This document shows positions 30,311 to 46,613 of a stretch of DNA of 64,000 nucleotides, piece by piece. The DNA is from Acidobacteriaceae bacterium. Its GTDB lineage: Bacteria > Acidobacteriota > Terriglobia > Terriglobales > Acidobacteriaceae. Where the stretch lies: assembly GCA_003170825.1 (NCBI GenBank), contig PMYL01000007.1, forward strand, positions 1-64,000, in the 5' to 3' direction. The notes beneath the pieces were generated by a model. The model did not search any database. It saw only the letters and a program-made list of their open reading frames with translations, and was not told the origin of the DNA. Position numbers and translations under genes: made by a program. Within the stretch, counting starts at the first letter, position 1. Every line of letters starts with the position of its first letter.

Positions 30311-30901
30311 ATGATCGCTCACCTGCGCGGAAAGCTCATCCACAAACAGCCCGGCCAGGCCATCGTCGAAGCCGCCGGGGTGGGCTACGACGTCACCATC
30401 TCGGTGCCTACCTTTACGGCGCTGCCCTCGGTGGGGCTCGAGGCGGCTCTGCACATTCACACCCAGGTCAGCGAGGATCAGATTGCGCTCTTCGGCTTTA
30501 TGGATCGCGAGGAAAAGCGGCTGTTTGAGCGGCTGATCACCGTCAGCGGTGTCGGCCCCAAGCTGGCTATCAAGATGCTGAGCGGGCTCTCGCCGGAGCG
30601 GACGGTGCAGGCGATTCGCGGCCAGGACCACGCGCAACTGACGCGCATTCCGGGCGTGGGCAAGAAGCTGGCCGAGCGGCTGGTTGTCGAACTCAAAGAC
30701 AAGCTGGATGATTTTGCCGCTCCCCCCGTGCAATCCGCCGTGCAAGGCCCTGCTGCCGAAGACGTGCTCTCCGCGCTGGTCAACCTGGGCTACCAGCGCA
30801 CCGCCGCCGAGAAGGCGATCCAGCAGGCCGTGGCCAAGGACAAGACCCTTGCCGCCGATTTCGACGGCCTCTTCCGCGGGGCGCTGAAGGTAATCCGCTG
30901 A
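30311..30901 (+). CDS. ruvA: Holliday junction DNA helicase subunit RuvA
   Basis: RuvA binds four-way junctions and loads RuvB. The product is 196 residues, normal length: the N-terminal OB fold (MIAHLRGKLI, GVGYDVTISVPTF), two helix-hairpin-helix motifs (VSGVGPKLAIKML and IPGVGKKLAERLV) and the C-terminal RuvB-interacting domain (EDVLSALVNLGYQRTAAEKAI). TACAAT lies 8 bases before the ATG, spanning the kbl stop. ruvB and ruvC are not adjacent. The 3' end is duplicated about 500 bases downstream. Confidence 0.97.
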   Translation: MIAHLRGKLIHKQPGQAIVEAAGVGYDVTISVPTFTALPSVGLEAALHIHTQVSEDQIALFGFMDREEKRLFERLITVSGVGPKLAIKMLSGLSPERTVQAIRGQDHAQLTRIPGVGKKLAERLVVELKDKLDDFAAPPVQSAVQGPAAEDVLSALVNLGYQRTAAEKAIQQAVAKDKTLAADFDGLFRGALKVIR

Positions 30902-30911
30902 TCGGAGGGAG

Positions 30912-30964
30912 CAGGGGCCTTCAGGCCCCTGAAGGACGTATGCGATAAGAGCGGCTTCAGCCGC
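30912..30964. repeat. Paired TTCA-loop hairpin repeat (REP-like)
   Basis: Two hairpins with TTCA loops lie 19 bases apart: CAGGGGCC/GGCCCCTG (30912-30931) and GCGGC/GCCGC (30951-30964). A second copy with a TTCA loop sits inside the HpnI-like gene at 45813-45868. Stems differ but loops are conserved, as in mobile REP elements. Confidence 0.75.
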
Positions 30965-31000
30965 GGGCTTTTCACCCATGCAGCCCACAAGAGGAACGCA

Positions 31001-42584: not shown

Positions 42585-43811
42585 ATGCAATTCACTGAGG
42601 CCATCAAACTCGCGCTGCAATCCCTGTGGGCCAACAAGATGCGCTCCATCCTCACGCTGCTCGGCATGGTCATTGGAGTTGCGTCTGTCATCACGGTCGT
42701 CACCCTGACCAACGGCGCCAAGCAATTTGTGACCACAAAGATCAACTCTTATGGCGCCAGCGTGGTCACCATCAGTAAAATGCCGCAAACCTTCATCACC
42801 ATCGACGAGTACCTCTCCTTCCAGAAACGAAGAGACGTTACGTTCGACGACTATAGGGCCATCGTTTCCGATTGCAAGTCCTGCGTGTCGGTCGGTGCGC
42901 GACGCAACACCACCGGCAAGATCGTCTACCAGACCAAGTCCACCACGGACACTGACATTCGCGGATGGACCTGGACCATGCCTCCGATTTCAAATCTCAA
43001 TATCGACGAAGGGCGCTCCTTCACTGAACTCGAGGACGAACATAGCACCCGCGTCGCCATCATCGGCTATGACGTTGTCGACAATGTGCTGGGCTCCGGC
43101 GACCCGCTCGGCAAGGAGATTCGCGTCGATGGATCTCCCTATACGGTGATTGGGGTTGGCGAGCGCCAGGGCAAGATGCTGGGCATGAGCATGGACAACT
43201 GGGTCGTTATTCCTCTCACCGCATTTCTCCATTCTTACGGCGCTCACGCCAGCATGGCCATCTATGTGGATGCCGGCGGGGGTGGCGAAGTCATGGACGA
43301 GGTTTCCGACCAGTTGCGCACCATTATGCGCGCGCGCCGCCATCTGGCGCCGGGCGCCCCGGATAGTTTCTCCATCGATACAAGCGCAACCTTCGGCAAC
43401 CTGCTGAGCAAGATACTCAATAACTTCGGAGCCGTGGTCGTAGCCATCGCCGGCATCTCCCTGGTGATCGGCGGCATTGTCATCATGAACATCATGCTCG
43501 TCTCCGTCACTGAGCGCACCCGGGAGATCGGCGTCCGCAAGGCCCTTGGCGCGCGCCGCAAAGACATCCTGCTTCAGTTCCTCATCGAGTCCGCAATCCT
43601 GGGGCTGCTGGGCGGCCTGATCGGCGTGATTTCAGGCATTAGCTTGGCCAAAATCATTACCCTGATCATCTCGTTCCCATCGGCGGTGGAACTCTGGTCG
43701 ATCATCGTCAGTTTGTTTGTCGCCATCGGCGTTGGCCTGTTTTTCGGCGTTTACCCGGCGGCCAAGGCTGCGCAACTCGATCCCATTGTTGCCCTGAGAT
43801 CGGAGCTATAG
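42585..43811 (+). CDS. MacB/FtsX-type ABC transporter permease
   Basis: The product is about 408 residues from the ATG at 42585. The N-terminal helix follows EAIKLALQSLWANKMRSILTLLGMVIGVASVI; a periplasmic MacB_PCD domain spans about residues 45-265; three C-terminal transmembrane helices surround VTERTREIGVRKALGARRKDILLQFLIE, which contacts the ATPase. The gap to the paralogous 43814 gene is two bases, so the two form an operon and probably a heterodimer. No ATP-binding subunit is adjacent. Such pairs export peptides, lipoproteins or macrolides with a periplasmic adaptor. Confidence 0.93.
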   Translation: MQFTEAIKLALQSLWANKMRSILTLLGMVIGVASVITVVTLTNGAKQFVTTKINSYGASVVTISKMPQTFITIDEYLSFQKRRDVTFDDYRAIVSDCKSCVSVGARRNTTGKIVYQTKSTTDTDIRGWTWTMPPISNLNIDEGRSFTELEDEHSTRVAIIGYDVVDNVLGSGDPLGKEIRVDGSPYTVIGVGERQGKMLGMSMDNWVVIPLTAFLHSYGAHASMAIYVDAGGGGEVMDEVSDQLRTIMRARRHLAPGAPDSFSIDTSATFGNLLSKILNNFGAVVVAIAGISLVIGGIVIMNIMLVSVTERTREIGVRKALGARRKDILLQFLIESAILGLLGGLIGVISGISLAKIITLIISFPSAVELWSIIVSLFVAIGVGLFFGVYPAAKAAQLDPIVALRSEL

Positions 43812-43813
43812 GC

Positions 43814-45070
43814 ATGAGGCTAAGCGACTCAAAAGAATCCGTGCTGTTGGCGCTCGATACGCTGCGCAAGAACAAATTGCGCTCCGGCCTCACCGTTCTC
43901 GGCATCGCCATCGGCATCGCCACGGTGATTCTCATCTCCTCGGCCATTAACGGACTCAATGGCAATATCGATCAGTTCATCAAATCTCTGGGCACCAACG
44001 ACCTGTGGGTCTTCCACTTTCAACCGTTCGGGAAGCGTCCCACCACCGAGGAACTCAATCGCAAACGGCTTACCTATGAGGACGGCATTGCCATGCGCAG
44101 CCTCCCGTATGTCGTTGCCGTCGATCCCGCTCTTACCTACCAGAATTGGCAGACGGGCCTCGGCAGCGTGTCTCTCAAGGCCGGCACGCACAAGATTCAG
44201 AACACCATTCTGAATGGCAGCTCTTCGGCGGTCAAAGAGACTCAGGATATCGAGCTGATCGAAGGCCGCATGTGGACGGATTCCGAGGAAGAGCGCAGCG
44301 CCAAAGTGGTTGTCCTGGGCCATGATGCCGCCGAAGATCTTTTTCCCGATGGGTCTCCTCTCGGCAAGGATATCGAATGTGAAGGCAGCATCTTTACGGT
44401 GATCGGCGTGCTCGATGTCCAGCCGCAGCCCTTCGGAAGCGGGCGCAACACGCAGGACAACTCCGCTTACTTCCCTCTTGAGACTTTCCGTAAGCTCCAT
44501 CCGGAGATCCTGGACTTCTGGATCACCTTGAAATATGACGATCCCGCCCACAAGGCGCTCGTCGTTGACGAAATTCGCGAGCTCCTCCGCCGCCGCCGCA
44601 ACGTTCGCCTGGAGCAGGACGACAACTTCGCCATCTTTGGCCCCGACTCGCTCACGCGTCTATGGAATTCGCTTACCGGCGGACTCTTTCTGTTTATGGT
44701 CGCCGTCTCTTCCGTTGGTCTCATGGTGGGCGGCGTCGGCGTCATGAATATCATGCTTGTCTCGGTGACTGAGCGCACCCGGGAAATTGGAGTCCGCAAG
44801 GCCATTGGCGCAACCAGGAAAAACATCCTTCTCCAGTTCACGTTGGAGGCCGTCACCCTTTGCGTGGTTGGCGGCCTGCTCGGCATCCTGGCTGGAGCTC
44901 TATTCACCCTGATTCTGCATTTTGCCGTATCGTACCTTCATGCTGCTCTTTCGCTCACCTGGGTTTTAATCGCCTTTGCGGTCTCCTGCGCCATCGGCTT
45001 GGTCTTCGGCATTTATCCCGCCTGGAAGGCAGCCTCCATGGACCCCATCGAGGCCCTCCGGTACGAGTGA
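43814..45070 (+). CDS. MacB/FtsX-type ABC transporter permease
   Basis: The product is 418 residues. It shows the same plan as its upstream paralogue: N-terminal SVLLALDTLRKNKLRSGLTVLGIAIGIA, a periplasmic domain, then VTERTREIGVRKAIGATRKNILLQF between the last transmembrane helices and a C-terminal ASMDPIEALRYE. The last motif (P-x-E-A-L-R-x-E) is typical of MacB permeases. It starts two bases after the upstream stop. A repeat-rich intergenic region follows. Confidence 0.93.
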   Translation: MRLSDSKESVLLALDTLRKNKLRSGLTVLGIAIGIATVILISSAINGLNGNIDQFIKSLGTNDLWVFHFQPFGKRPTTEELNRKRLTYEDGIAMRSLPYVVAVDPALTYQNWQTGLGSVSLKAGTHKIQNTILNGSSSAVKETQDIELIEGRMWTDSEEERSAKVVVLGHDAAEDLFPDGSPLGKDIECEGSIFTVIGVLDVQPQPFGSGRNTQDNSAYFPLETFRKLHPEILDFWITLKYDDPAHKALVVDEIRELLRRRRNVRLEQDDNFAIFGPDSLTRLWNSLTGGLFLFMVAVSSVGLMVGGVGVMNIMLVSVTERTREIGVRKAIGATRKNILLQFTLEAVTLCVVGGLLGILAGALFTLILHFAVSYLHAALSLTWVLIAFAVSCAIGLVFGIYPAWKAASMDPIEALRYE

Positions 45071-45312: not shown

Positions 45313-45326
45313 TTCTTACCCCTGTG

Positions 45327-46613
45327 ATGCCACATGTTTTAGCCCAATCCGTGGAGATTCTCGCCACGGTGCTGGCCGTGGCCGGCATGGGCTACTTTCT
45401 GGCGGCCATGGTTGCCGCGCGCGTCTTTTTAGCGGCCCGGCGCGCCCCGCTGGCGCCCTTTGCGCCCGGCGTCAGCATCCTCAAGTCACTCAAAGGACTT
45501 GACTTGGGAATGATCGACGCCTTCCGCAGCCACTGCCGCCAAATCTACGCCGGCGAGGTTGAACTGCTCTTCGGGGTTTCCTCGCTTACCGATCCTGCCG
45601 TGGCCGCCGTTGAACAGCTCAAACAAGAATTCCCCGCTCATTCCATTCAACTTATCCTATGTCCCGCTCGCCTTGGAACCAACGGCAAGGTCAGCGTCCT
45701 GGTCCAGCTTGCCGCCCACACCCGCCACGACTTTTTGCTCATCAACGACTCCGACATCACCGTCTCGCCCCGTTACCTGGAGCGGGTCATGGCTTGCTTC
45801 GCCAAGTGTCAGGGCACGACTTCAGTCGTGCCGCAAATGCAGCAAAATGAACCGGGGGCTTTAGCCCCTGAGGGTAAATCTGCCAATTCTTCCACGGGTA
45901 CATACTCCCCTAAGCCTCACCCGCAGATCGGTCTGGTGACCGCCCTTTATCGCGGCCGCGCCCACGGCACGCTCCCTTCGCGGCTTGAGGCGCTGGGCAT
46001 CGCCTCCGACTTCCAGGCCGGCGTCTTGCTCTCAAAGATGATTGAAGGCGGCCTTCATTTCGGCCTGGGCTCCACGCTGGCCGTAAGCCGCAATGCGCTC
46101 AACAAGATAGGGGGCCTCGCGCCGCTGGTGGACCACCTCGCCGACGACTACGAACTGGGCGCGCGCGTGGCCCAGGCCGGCTACCGCGTCGCGCTAAGCG
46201 CCGAAGTCGTCGAGACCGCCATTCCCGCCTACGGCTGGCGCGGCTTCGTCGATCACCAGCTCCGTTGGGCCCGCACCGTCCGCGACGCCCGCCCCTGGGG
46301 CTACGCCGGCCTGATCTTTACCCATGGGCTGGGCTGGGCTGTACTGAACGTGCTGGCCAGCGGGTTGAGCCCGTTGAGCTTATGGCTCCTGGGGTTGAGC
46401 TTCTTCCTGCGCCTGACCCTGGCCATGATGGTCGGCGCTGAAGTGCTCGGCGACCACCAGGTCCTCTCCGGCCTATGGCTCCTGCCGCTGCGCGACCTCG
46501 TCGCCATGGGCGTCTGGGTAGCCGGCTTCGCCGGAAACACCATCGTTTGGCGCGGCGAGCGCTTCCTGCTCAAAGACGGAAAGCTCGAAAAGGCCAGCGA
46601 GTCAGCAAAGTAG
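45327..46613 (+). CDS. HpnI-like family 2 glycosyltransferase
   Basis: The product is about 428 residues. An N-terminal transmembrane helix is followed by a GT2 (ceramide-glucosyltransferase-like) domain: FAPGVSILKSLKGLD, LLINDSDITVSPRYLERVMACF with the D-x-D region, GLVTALYRGRAHG, DHLADDYELGARVAQAGYRV and the HQLRWARTVRDARPWGYAG (Q-x-x-R-W) motif; three to four transmembrane helices end the protein. HpnI adds N-acetylglucosamine to bacteriohopanetetrol in hopanoid synthesis. About 40 residues between CFAK and PQIGLV are an insertion encoded by a REP-like element. Confidence 0.88.
   Translation: MPHVLAQSVEILATVLAVAGMGYFLAAMVAARVFLAARRAPLAPFAPGVSILKSLKGLDLGMIDAFRSHCRQIYAGEVELLFGVSSLTDPAVAAVEQLKQEFPAHSIQLILCPARLGTNGKVSVLVQLAAHTRHDFLLINDSDITVSPRYLERVMACFAKCQGTTSVVPQMQQNEPGALAPEGKSANSSTGTYSPKPHPQIGLVTALYRGRAHGTLPSRLEALGIASDFQAGVLLSKMIEGGLHFGLGSTLAVSRNALNKIGGLAPLVDHLADDYELGARVAQAGYRVALSAEVVETAIPAYGWRGFVDHQLRWARTVRDARPWGYAGLIFTHGLGWAVLNVLASGLSPLSLWLLGLSFFLRLTLAMMVGAEVLGDHQVLSGLWLLPLRDLVAMGVWVAGFAGNTIVWRGERFLLKDGKLEKASESAK
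45813..45868. repeat. TTCA-loop paired hairpin (REP-like) inside a glycosyltransferase gene
   Basis: GGCACGAC (45813-45820) and GTCGTGCC (45825-45832) form a perfect stem with a TTCA loop; 22 bases later GGGGCT/AGCCCC (45855-45868) follows. The element is read through in frame. A second copy is at 30912-30964. Confidence 0.8.

Follow-up and report, generated by a model that had tools for sequence, protein, structure and literature searches.

The 64,000-nucleotide stretch of Acidobacteriaceae DNA analysed here, referred to as the window, raises the question of how a hairpin-forming repeat comes to lie, in an open reading frame, within the catalytic domain of an HpnI-type glycosyltransferase gene, and what this means for the protein. 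The answer that we hold with high confidence is that the repeat is a REP dimer linked to RAYT transposases, a member of a distinct Acidobacteriaceae family, which survives in genes where its frame is open and where it falls in a permissive loop.

The window HpnI passes the NCBIfam profile TIGR03472 despite the insert (318.8 bits; cut-off 310), and the hpnI frame is open throughout the 72-bp element, in agreement with the initial annotation, which had described a REP-like element read through in a gene of this type. Both hairpins named there, the first with a TTCA loop, are present at exactly the coordinates of Table 1. Hairpin 1 is composed of GGCACGAC-TTCA-GTCGTGCC and is separated by 22 bases from hairpin 2 (GGGGC-TTTA-GCCCC). 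The further copy reported after ruvA is also real, beginning just past the end of that gene at 30901. The window contains two hairpins centred on CTTNAG whose stem is 6 bp or longer (45813 and 30912), against a mean of 0.1 and a maximum of 1 in 20 second-order Markov controls. As RNA, positions 45800–45880 fold with −31.3 kcal/mol (z = −2.78; 1 of 200 shuffles as good), and as DNA with z = −2.08 (8 of 200 shuffles as good). A search of positions 45600–46100 against Rfam returned nothing near the gathering score of any family. Upstream, a 161-nt direct repeat (76%) occupies 43465–43625 and 44724–44884, its second copy lying inside a permease-like ORF (43814–45070).

Table 1. Positions in the window of the hpnI gene, the inserted element with its hairpins, and the second element copy.
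Feature	Position	Strand	Details
hpnI-type glycosyltransferase gene	45324..46613	+	429 aa; NCBIfam TIGR03472 and Pfam Glyco_transf_21 matches
Double-hairpin REP-type element, in frame in hpnI	45805..45876	+	R1 71.2 bits, E 3.9e-18
Hairpin 1, GGCACGACTTCAGTCGTGCC	45813..45832	+	8-bp stem, TTCA loop
Hairpin 2, GGGGCTTTAGCCCC	45855..45868	+	5-bp stem, TTTA loop
Codons Q163–Q201, variable loop	45810..45926	+	between helix 151–163 and strand 202–213
Second, diverged element copy	30904..30969	+	R1 42.5 bits; intergenic, between ruvA and a 137-aa ORF

The element belongs to a repeat family, R1, represented by a covariance model from 13 copies of the same genome, the window copy included. The seed places are aligned GGGGCTTNAGCCCC sites having an upstream hairpin; this motif occurs 18 times in the genome and the reversed control pattern not once. 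Searching the genome (3.49 Mb, 59 contigs) with R1 yielded 106 matches at E ≤ 0.1, among which the window copy ranks ninth, and 96 at E ≤ 1e-4, which provides the genome-wide copy count that had been proposed as a check. R1 elements span about 71–75 bp and contain two hairpins whose stems are unlike in sequence; the outer foot and stem 1 vary between subtypes, and conservation largely ends at the model limits, save for a few foot bases. Across 92 own copies the stems are paired in 94.8% of pair cells, compared with 70.7% in shuffles and 35–49% in slid versions, the alignment being fitted to the structure and thereby favoured over the slid versions. The covariation score is 0.570 versus 0.137, and both sides of a pair have changed in 257 cells versus 76.6; helix 2 contains one weak pair, unpaired in 44 of 75 cells. 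The flanks of R1 copies display no obvious target duplication, no empty site near enough to fix the exact ends or such a duplication was found, and no movement was seen. The counts of tags and reading frames below use 98 distinct matches, assembled manually from 131 listed rows; this set takes in three further rows of that listing and leaves out C22:1-66, cut by a contig end, and 10 matches weaker than 1e-4.

In copy number and compensatory stem changes R1 behaves as expected of REP or REPIN sequences, and it also flanks transposase genes. The genome possesses three Y1_Tnp (PF01797) genes, and two of them (C42 and C23) are flanked by R1 on either side at distances of up to about 170 bp from the transposase domain, resembling the arrangement of REPs and RAYTs. 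The third (L119, C4) has no R1 nearby; it is surrounded by other repeat-like segments, encoding KGWxT when translated, and a similar peptide is found in the tsaD loop of genome G020 (L195). Under stricter filters for cross-genome counts, and with no more than 83 candidates scored per genome, all 36 genomes of the genus (own included) gave R1 matches, between 1 and at least 83 in each. Matches were also found in 1 of 14 genomes belonging to another family of the same order (none in the other 13) and in 3 of 10 genomes from other families of the class. In genome G055, from another family, a Y1_Tnp domain has R1 on both sides within about 85 bp. At the genome level the association is weak, since outside the genus Y1_Tnp occurs in 17 of 24 genomes and R1 in only 4 of 24, and since G023, a genus genome carrying R1, yielded no Y1_Tnp match. 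We set such presence counts aside as uninformative and used adjacency in their place.

Several known systems share features with R1. REPINs with RAYTs, the subject of PMC3116915, likewise have hairpins paired as a unit, a high copy number and flanked transposase genes; R1 differs in that its two hairpins are unlike in sequence and that many copies lie inside genes. According to the accessible part of PMC3733652, intragenic GTAG/CGTC REP dimers encode 20–30 residues and often lie in genes for repair or RNA modification, with pseudouridine-synthase genes also among the hosts; the insertions are argued to be possibly neutral in loops, the GTAG type is associated with RAYTs, intragenic REPs are listed in several species, and a same-site case in recB is given for two Xanthomonas species. 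In that same part, Acidobacteria are named for transposases with long terminal repeats and not for intragenic REPs. R1 resembles these dimers as a hairpin-pair element in genes, contributing about 24 residues to HpnI, with a RAYT-like link, and differs from them, as far as that text goes, by recurring in one loop in several genes, in up to 8 orthologues. The superfamily tags are mostly absent: of 98 R1 copies, 4 have GTAG near the left end, 2 have CGTC at the left end and 1 has CGTC at the right end. Class 3 Y1 transposases of Acidobacteria are described, in the accessible portion of PMC6006769, with CnGA-footed hairpins; 21 of 98 R1 copies show CGGA at the left foot, and the majority lack it. 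Finally, Rickettsia palindromic elements (RPEs; Ogata 2000 and 2002) are, in the accessible sections of the review PMC10969869, small palindromic elements of about 150 bp, located in frame in unrelated protein genes and thought to be compatible with function. R1 shares the in-frame location in unrelated genes and is set apart from RPEs, as these are described there, by its shorter length, its two short hairpins, its Acidobacteriaceae host and its Y1/RAYT-like gene neighbours.

The phenomenon is wider than first noted, as many other genes carry the element and the hpnI site has been struck repeatedly. The 98 R1 matches were tested for covering reading frames, and 21 ORFs were scanned with Pfam, NCBIfam or both; they represent a subset of the ORFs over 190 aa, the remaining copies lying outside such ORFs or in unsupported or unscanned ones. 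Fifteen elements (11 sense, 4 antisense) are in frame in 14 conserved genes, counted where family matches stand on both sides of the element or one match spans it. Besides hpnI, the carriers encode TsaD, LpxB (the place of its second matched stretch being inferred from the profile part left unmatched), GpsA, RsmB, TruA, RimO, UvrC, TrpF, CarB, an MBL-fold hydrolase, TilS, a REase-ARP protein and a type ISP restriction protein. Outside this count remain rsmG, a UvrC-like ORF (L123) and a thyX-like one (L135), matched on one side only, as well as the scanned ORFs L150, L157, L159 and L160, and L114 by NCBIfam, in which no family was found. The type ISP restriction-like gene (L149/L151, C11) contains two in-frame elements that belong to different subtypes and whose starts are 96 bp apart. 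The carB gene (L121/L172, C23) carries its element in antisense and is close to a Y1 transposase gene ringed by three further R1. A thyX-like gene (L135 on C18, L125 on C11) is truncated where the contigs end, next to R1 elements.

Sense insertions use one frame in 13 of 14 cases, one-sided matches included. This bias stems mostly from stop avoidance, because the preferred frame is open in 66% of 86 full-length copies (the other two in 31% and 7%); being only modestly above that expectation, it was rejected as proof of adaptation. The element is often stop-free in one frame on each strand. The hpnI copy begins in a rarely open frame and, with 72 bases instead of the usual 71, owes to its extra base that it reaches the common GALAPEG frame at hairpin 2.

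Within HpnI, the element lies about 20 residues past the DxD motif, inside the catalytic GT domain. An insertion of about 40 residues had been proposed; the loop does comprise 39 residues, of which only about 24 derive from the element, as delimited by the R1 match, and the other 16 or so resemble the native linker, 17 and 18 residues long in the two nearest orthologues. AlphaFold (39-row alignment) gave a mean pLDDT of 91.5, with values below 50 at residues 165–175 and 179–182, and predicts that the HpnI fold is kept and the element-encoded insert disordered. The position between conserved blocks, as first described, is confirmed, and an extra surface loop is its most likely form. From the GT-A topology, we assume that the helix-to-strand turn at this site faces away from the nucleotide site. 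The closest solved relatives by sequence are ceramide glucosyltransferases (26qs nearest); a Foldseek comparison with the PDB gave query TM-scores of 0.32–0.57 among the 50 matches listed, and so was used for fold class only.

Orthologues, whose alignment was likewise suggested at the outset, were searched for R1 in 97 loci. Duplicate orthologues were merged, and L085 (partial) and four loci with no complete hpnI frame and no R1 match (L010, L045, L058, L084) were dropped. The loop between the post-DxD helix and the VGLVT strand has 1–20 residues in 53 of 63 distinct orthologues, the window included. R1 is present in it in eight: four in sense (window, L033, L035, L038) and four in antisense (L015, L036, L046, L071). 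These eight distinct elements represent several subtypes, all share this one loop and all leave the frame open; the other R1 matches in the searched loci fall, by coordinates, outside hpnI. No orthologue examined has the sequence of the window loop without the hairpins, the finding that the initial annotation had named as refuting it. In L049 another palindrome stands at the same place. The loops of L062 and L080 run to 72–73 residues, and no palindrome of this kind turned up in them; extra length from other sources is therefore tolerated here too. On an hpnI tree from which the loop was excluded (27 of 60 inner branches open, support within the genus often low), R1 presence requires 5 changes (5–6 across bootstrap trees). 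Type and orientation together require 7, the same on 200 of 200 bootstrap trees; these changes may be gains, losses or replacements.

The same loops are used repeatedly in other genes. Among 30 tsaD loci, R1 fills the loop ahead of the SGGHT motif in the own genome, G004 (with a second R1 copy further on) and G012, and other repeats fill these loops in G003, G021 and G016. In 30 gpsA loci, R1 shares one loop in the own genome and G015, and three other species have long loops with no R1. In rsmB the same linker is occupied in the own genome, G016 and G010. Non-R1 repeat families in loops also used by R1 were noted in L193, L204 and L205 (tsaD) and L049 (hpnI), with encoded peptides of the types CHPERAKRVEGP and GAPGLASETW. 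Twenty R1 matches from 14 relatives, taken from the head of the match list and not at random, were also fetched. All ten scanned ORFs over these elements matched Pfam families (MnmE, AlaS, two Thy1, PrmC, two RsmB, a GDE-like protein, RecN and an ABC transporter), seven on both sides or spanning; the alaS carrier is genome G005. The Thy1-family ORFs with elements come from G015 (L264) and G018 (L273).

We propose that a non-autonomous element of the REP-dimer or REPIN type, probably moved by Y1/RAYT-like transposases, landed in hpnI and left its frame open. The segment would be translated as part of HpnI and tolerated because the linker into which it falls, between the post-DxD helix and the next strand of the GT domain, is disordered, leaving the enzyme presumably active and the insertion nearly neutral. 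The presence of squalene-hopene cyclase and HpnH in the genome speaks for this reading. The same filter may explain the persistence of elements in other conserved genes and the repeated use of the same loops across species.

The insertion might instead impair or kill HpnI and mark a gene on its way out, as the initial annotation had considered, given its place in the catalytic domain so soon after the DxD motif. The genomic context could be read in this direction: the genes for squalene-hopene cyclase (shc) and HpnH are adjacent on C44 and hpnI is apart from them, and the HpnK-like gene, at 185.3 bits, falls short of its 232.6 cut-off. As hpnI, hpnK and hpnJ go together in the studied Alphaproteobacteria with two exceptions, according to the accessible part of PMC12583986, the fate of the HpnI product here is uncertain. 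However, the window protein has no stop and retains the K-LKG, NGK, DSD, LADDY and RWAR motifs, its end branch measures 0.11 against a median of 0.2, and the frame is kept open in every element-bearing orthologue. Carriers do vary at some positions: an Asn that is invariant in A3 is Ser in L071, and RWAR is replaced in L033 (RWYR), L071 (RWLR) and L015 (RWLR), the exact string being absent from 33 of 64 rows overall. Judged from these sequences, impairment is not supported and appears improbable to us. Slightly harder still to credit is an element kept for a function in hpnI, either through RNA hairpins regulating translation or through the peptide. The stable RNA fold and the recurrence at one site would suit such a role, but carriers differ in subtype and orientation, so neither peptide nor strand is conserved in the loop, 55 of 63 orthologues lack R1 there, and unrelated genes carry it as well.

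Recurrence could also reflect a DNA target preference of the transposase and not the tolerance of protein loops, and the same-loop matches in hpnI, tsaD, gpsA and rsmB are what it would produce. Both may act, yet we regard preference as a rather unlikely explanation: no strong common flank was found among 85 copies, beyond a few bases that resemble subtype feet, and other repeat families occupy the same loops. An artefact of metagenome assembly or binning, which the 59 contigs of the window genome and the thyX-like gene breaking off beside the element might suggest, deserves almost no weight, as the same type of insertion occurs in independent assemblies, for example in alaS of G005.

Placed beside these alternatives, a transposase-linked REP dimer retained in permissive loops represents a kind of phenomenon already known, since intragenic REPs and RPEs are in print, as the accessible parts of PMC3733652 and PMC10969869 attest. 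Among the matches listed in our search for prior reports of such repeats in Acidobacteria or inside genes, which covered few subscription papers, PMC3733652 and PMC6006769 were relevant. As far as these searches show, two things are new: an Acidobacteriaceae family that mostly lacks the GTAG/CGTC tag, and recurrent occupation of the same loops across several genes. Rickettsia is the best-known source of protein-coding palindromes, and for other prokaryotes the accessible text of PMC10969869 goes no further than to call a similar route conceivable. More tentatively, and with somewhat less than even confidence, we speculate that a whole genus has transposase-linked palindromes repeatedly entering conserved proteins in frame, with separate repeat families filling the same permissive loops (hpnI, tsaD, gpsA, rsmB, thyX-like) and the sequence of the element shaped so as to keep one frame open on each strand. 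This soil group offers an adjacent transposase candidate, dozens of comparable genomes and repeated same-loop insertions, which makes two questions testable: whether such elements adapt to translation, and which protein loops accept foreign segments. In practice, an Acidobacteriaceae protein of outlying length should first be screened for these repeats, and only then considered for a new domain. If the broader proposal is true, the repeats would supply the whole lineage with new protein segments again and again, and would chart naturally which loops tolerate insertion.
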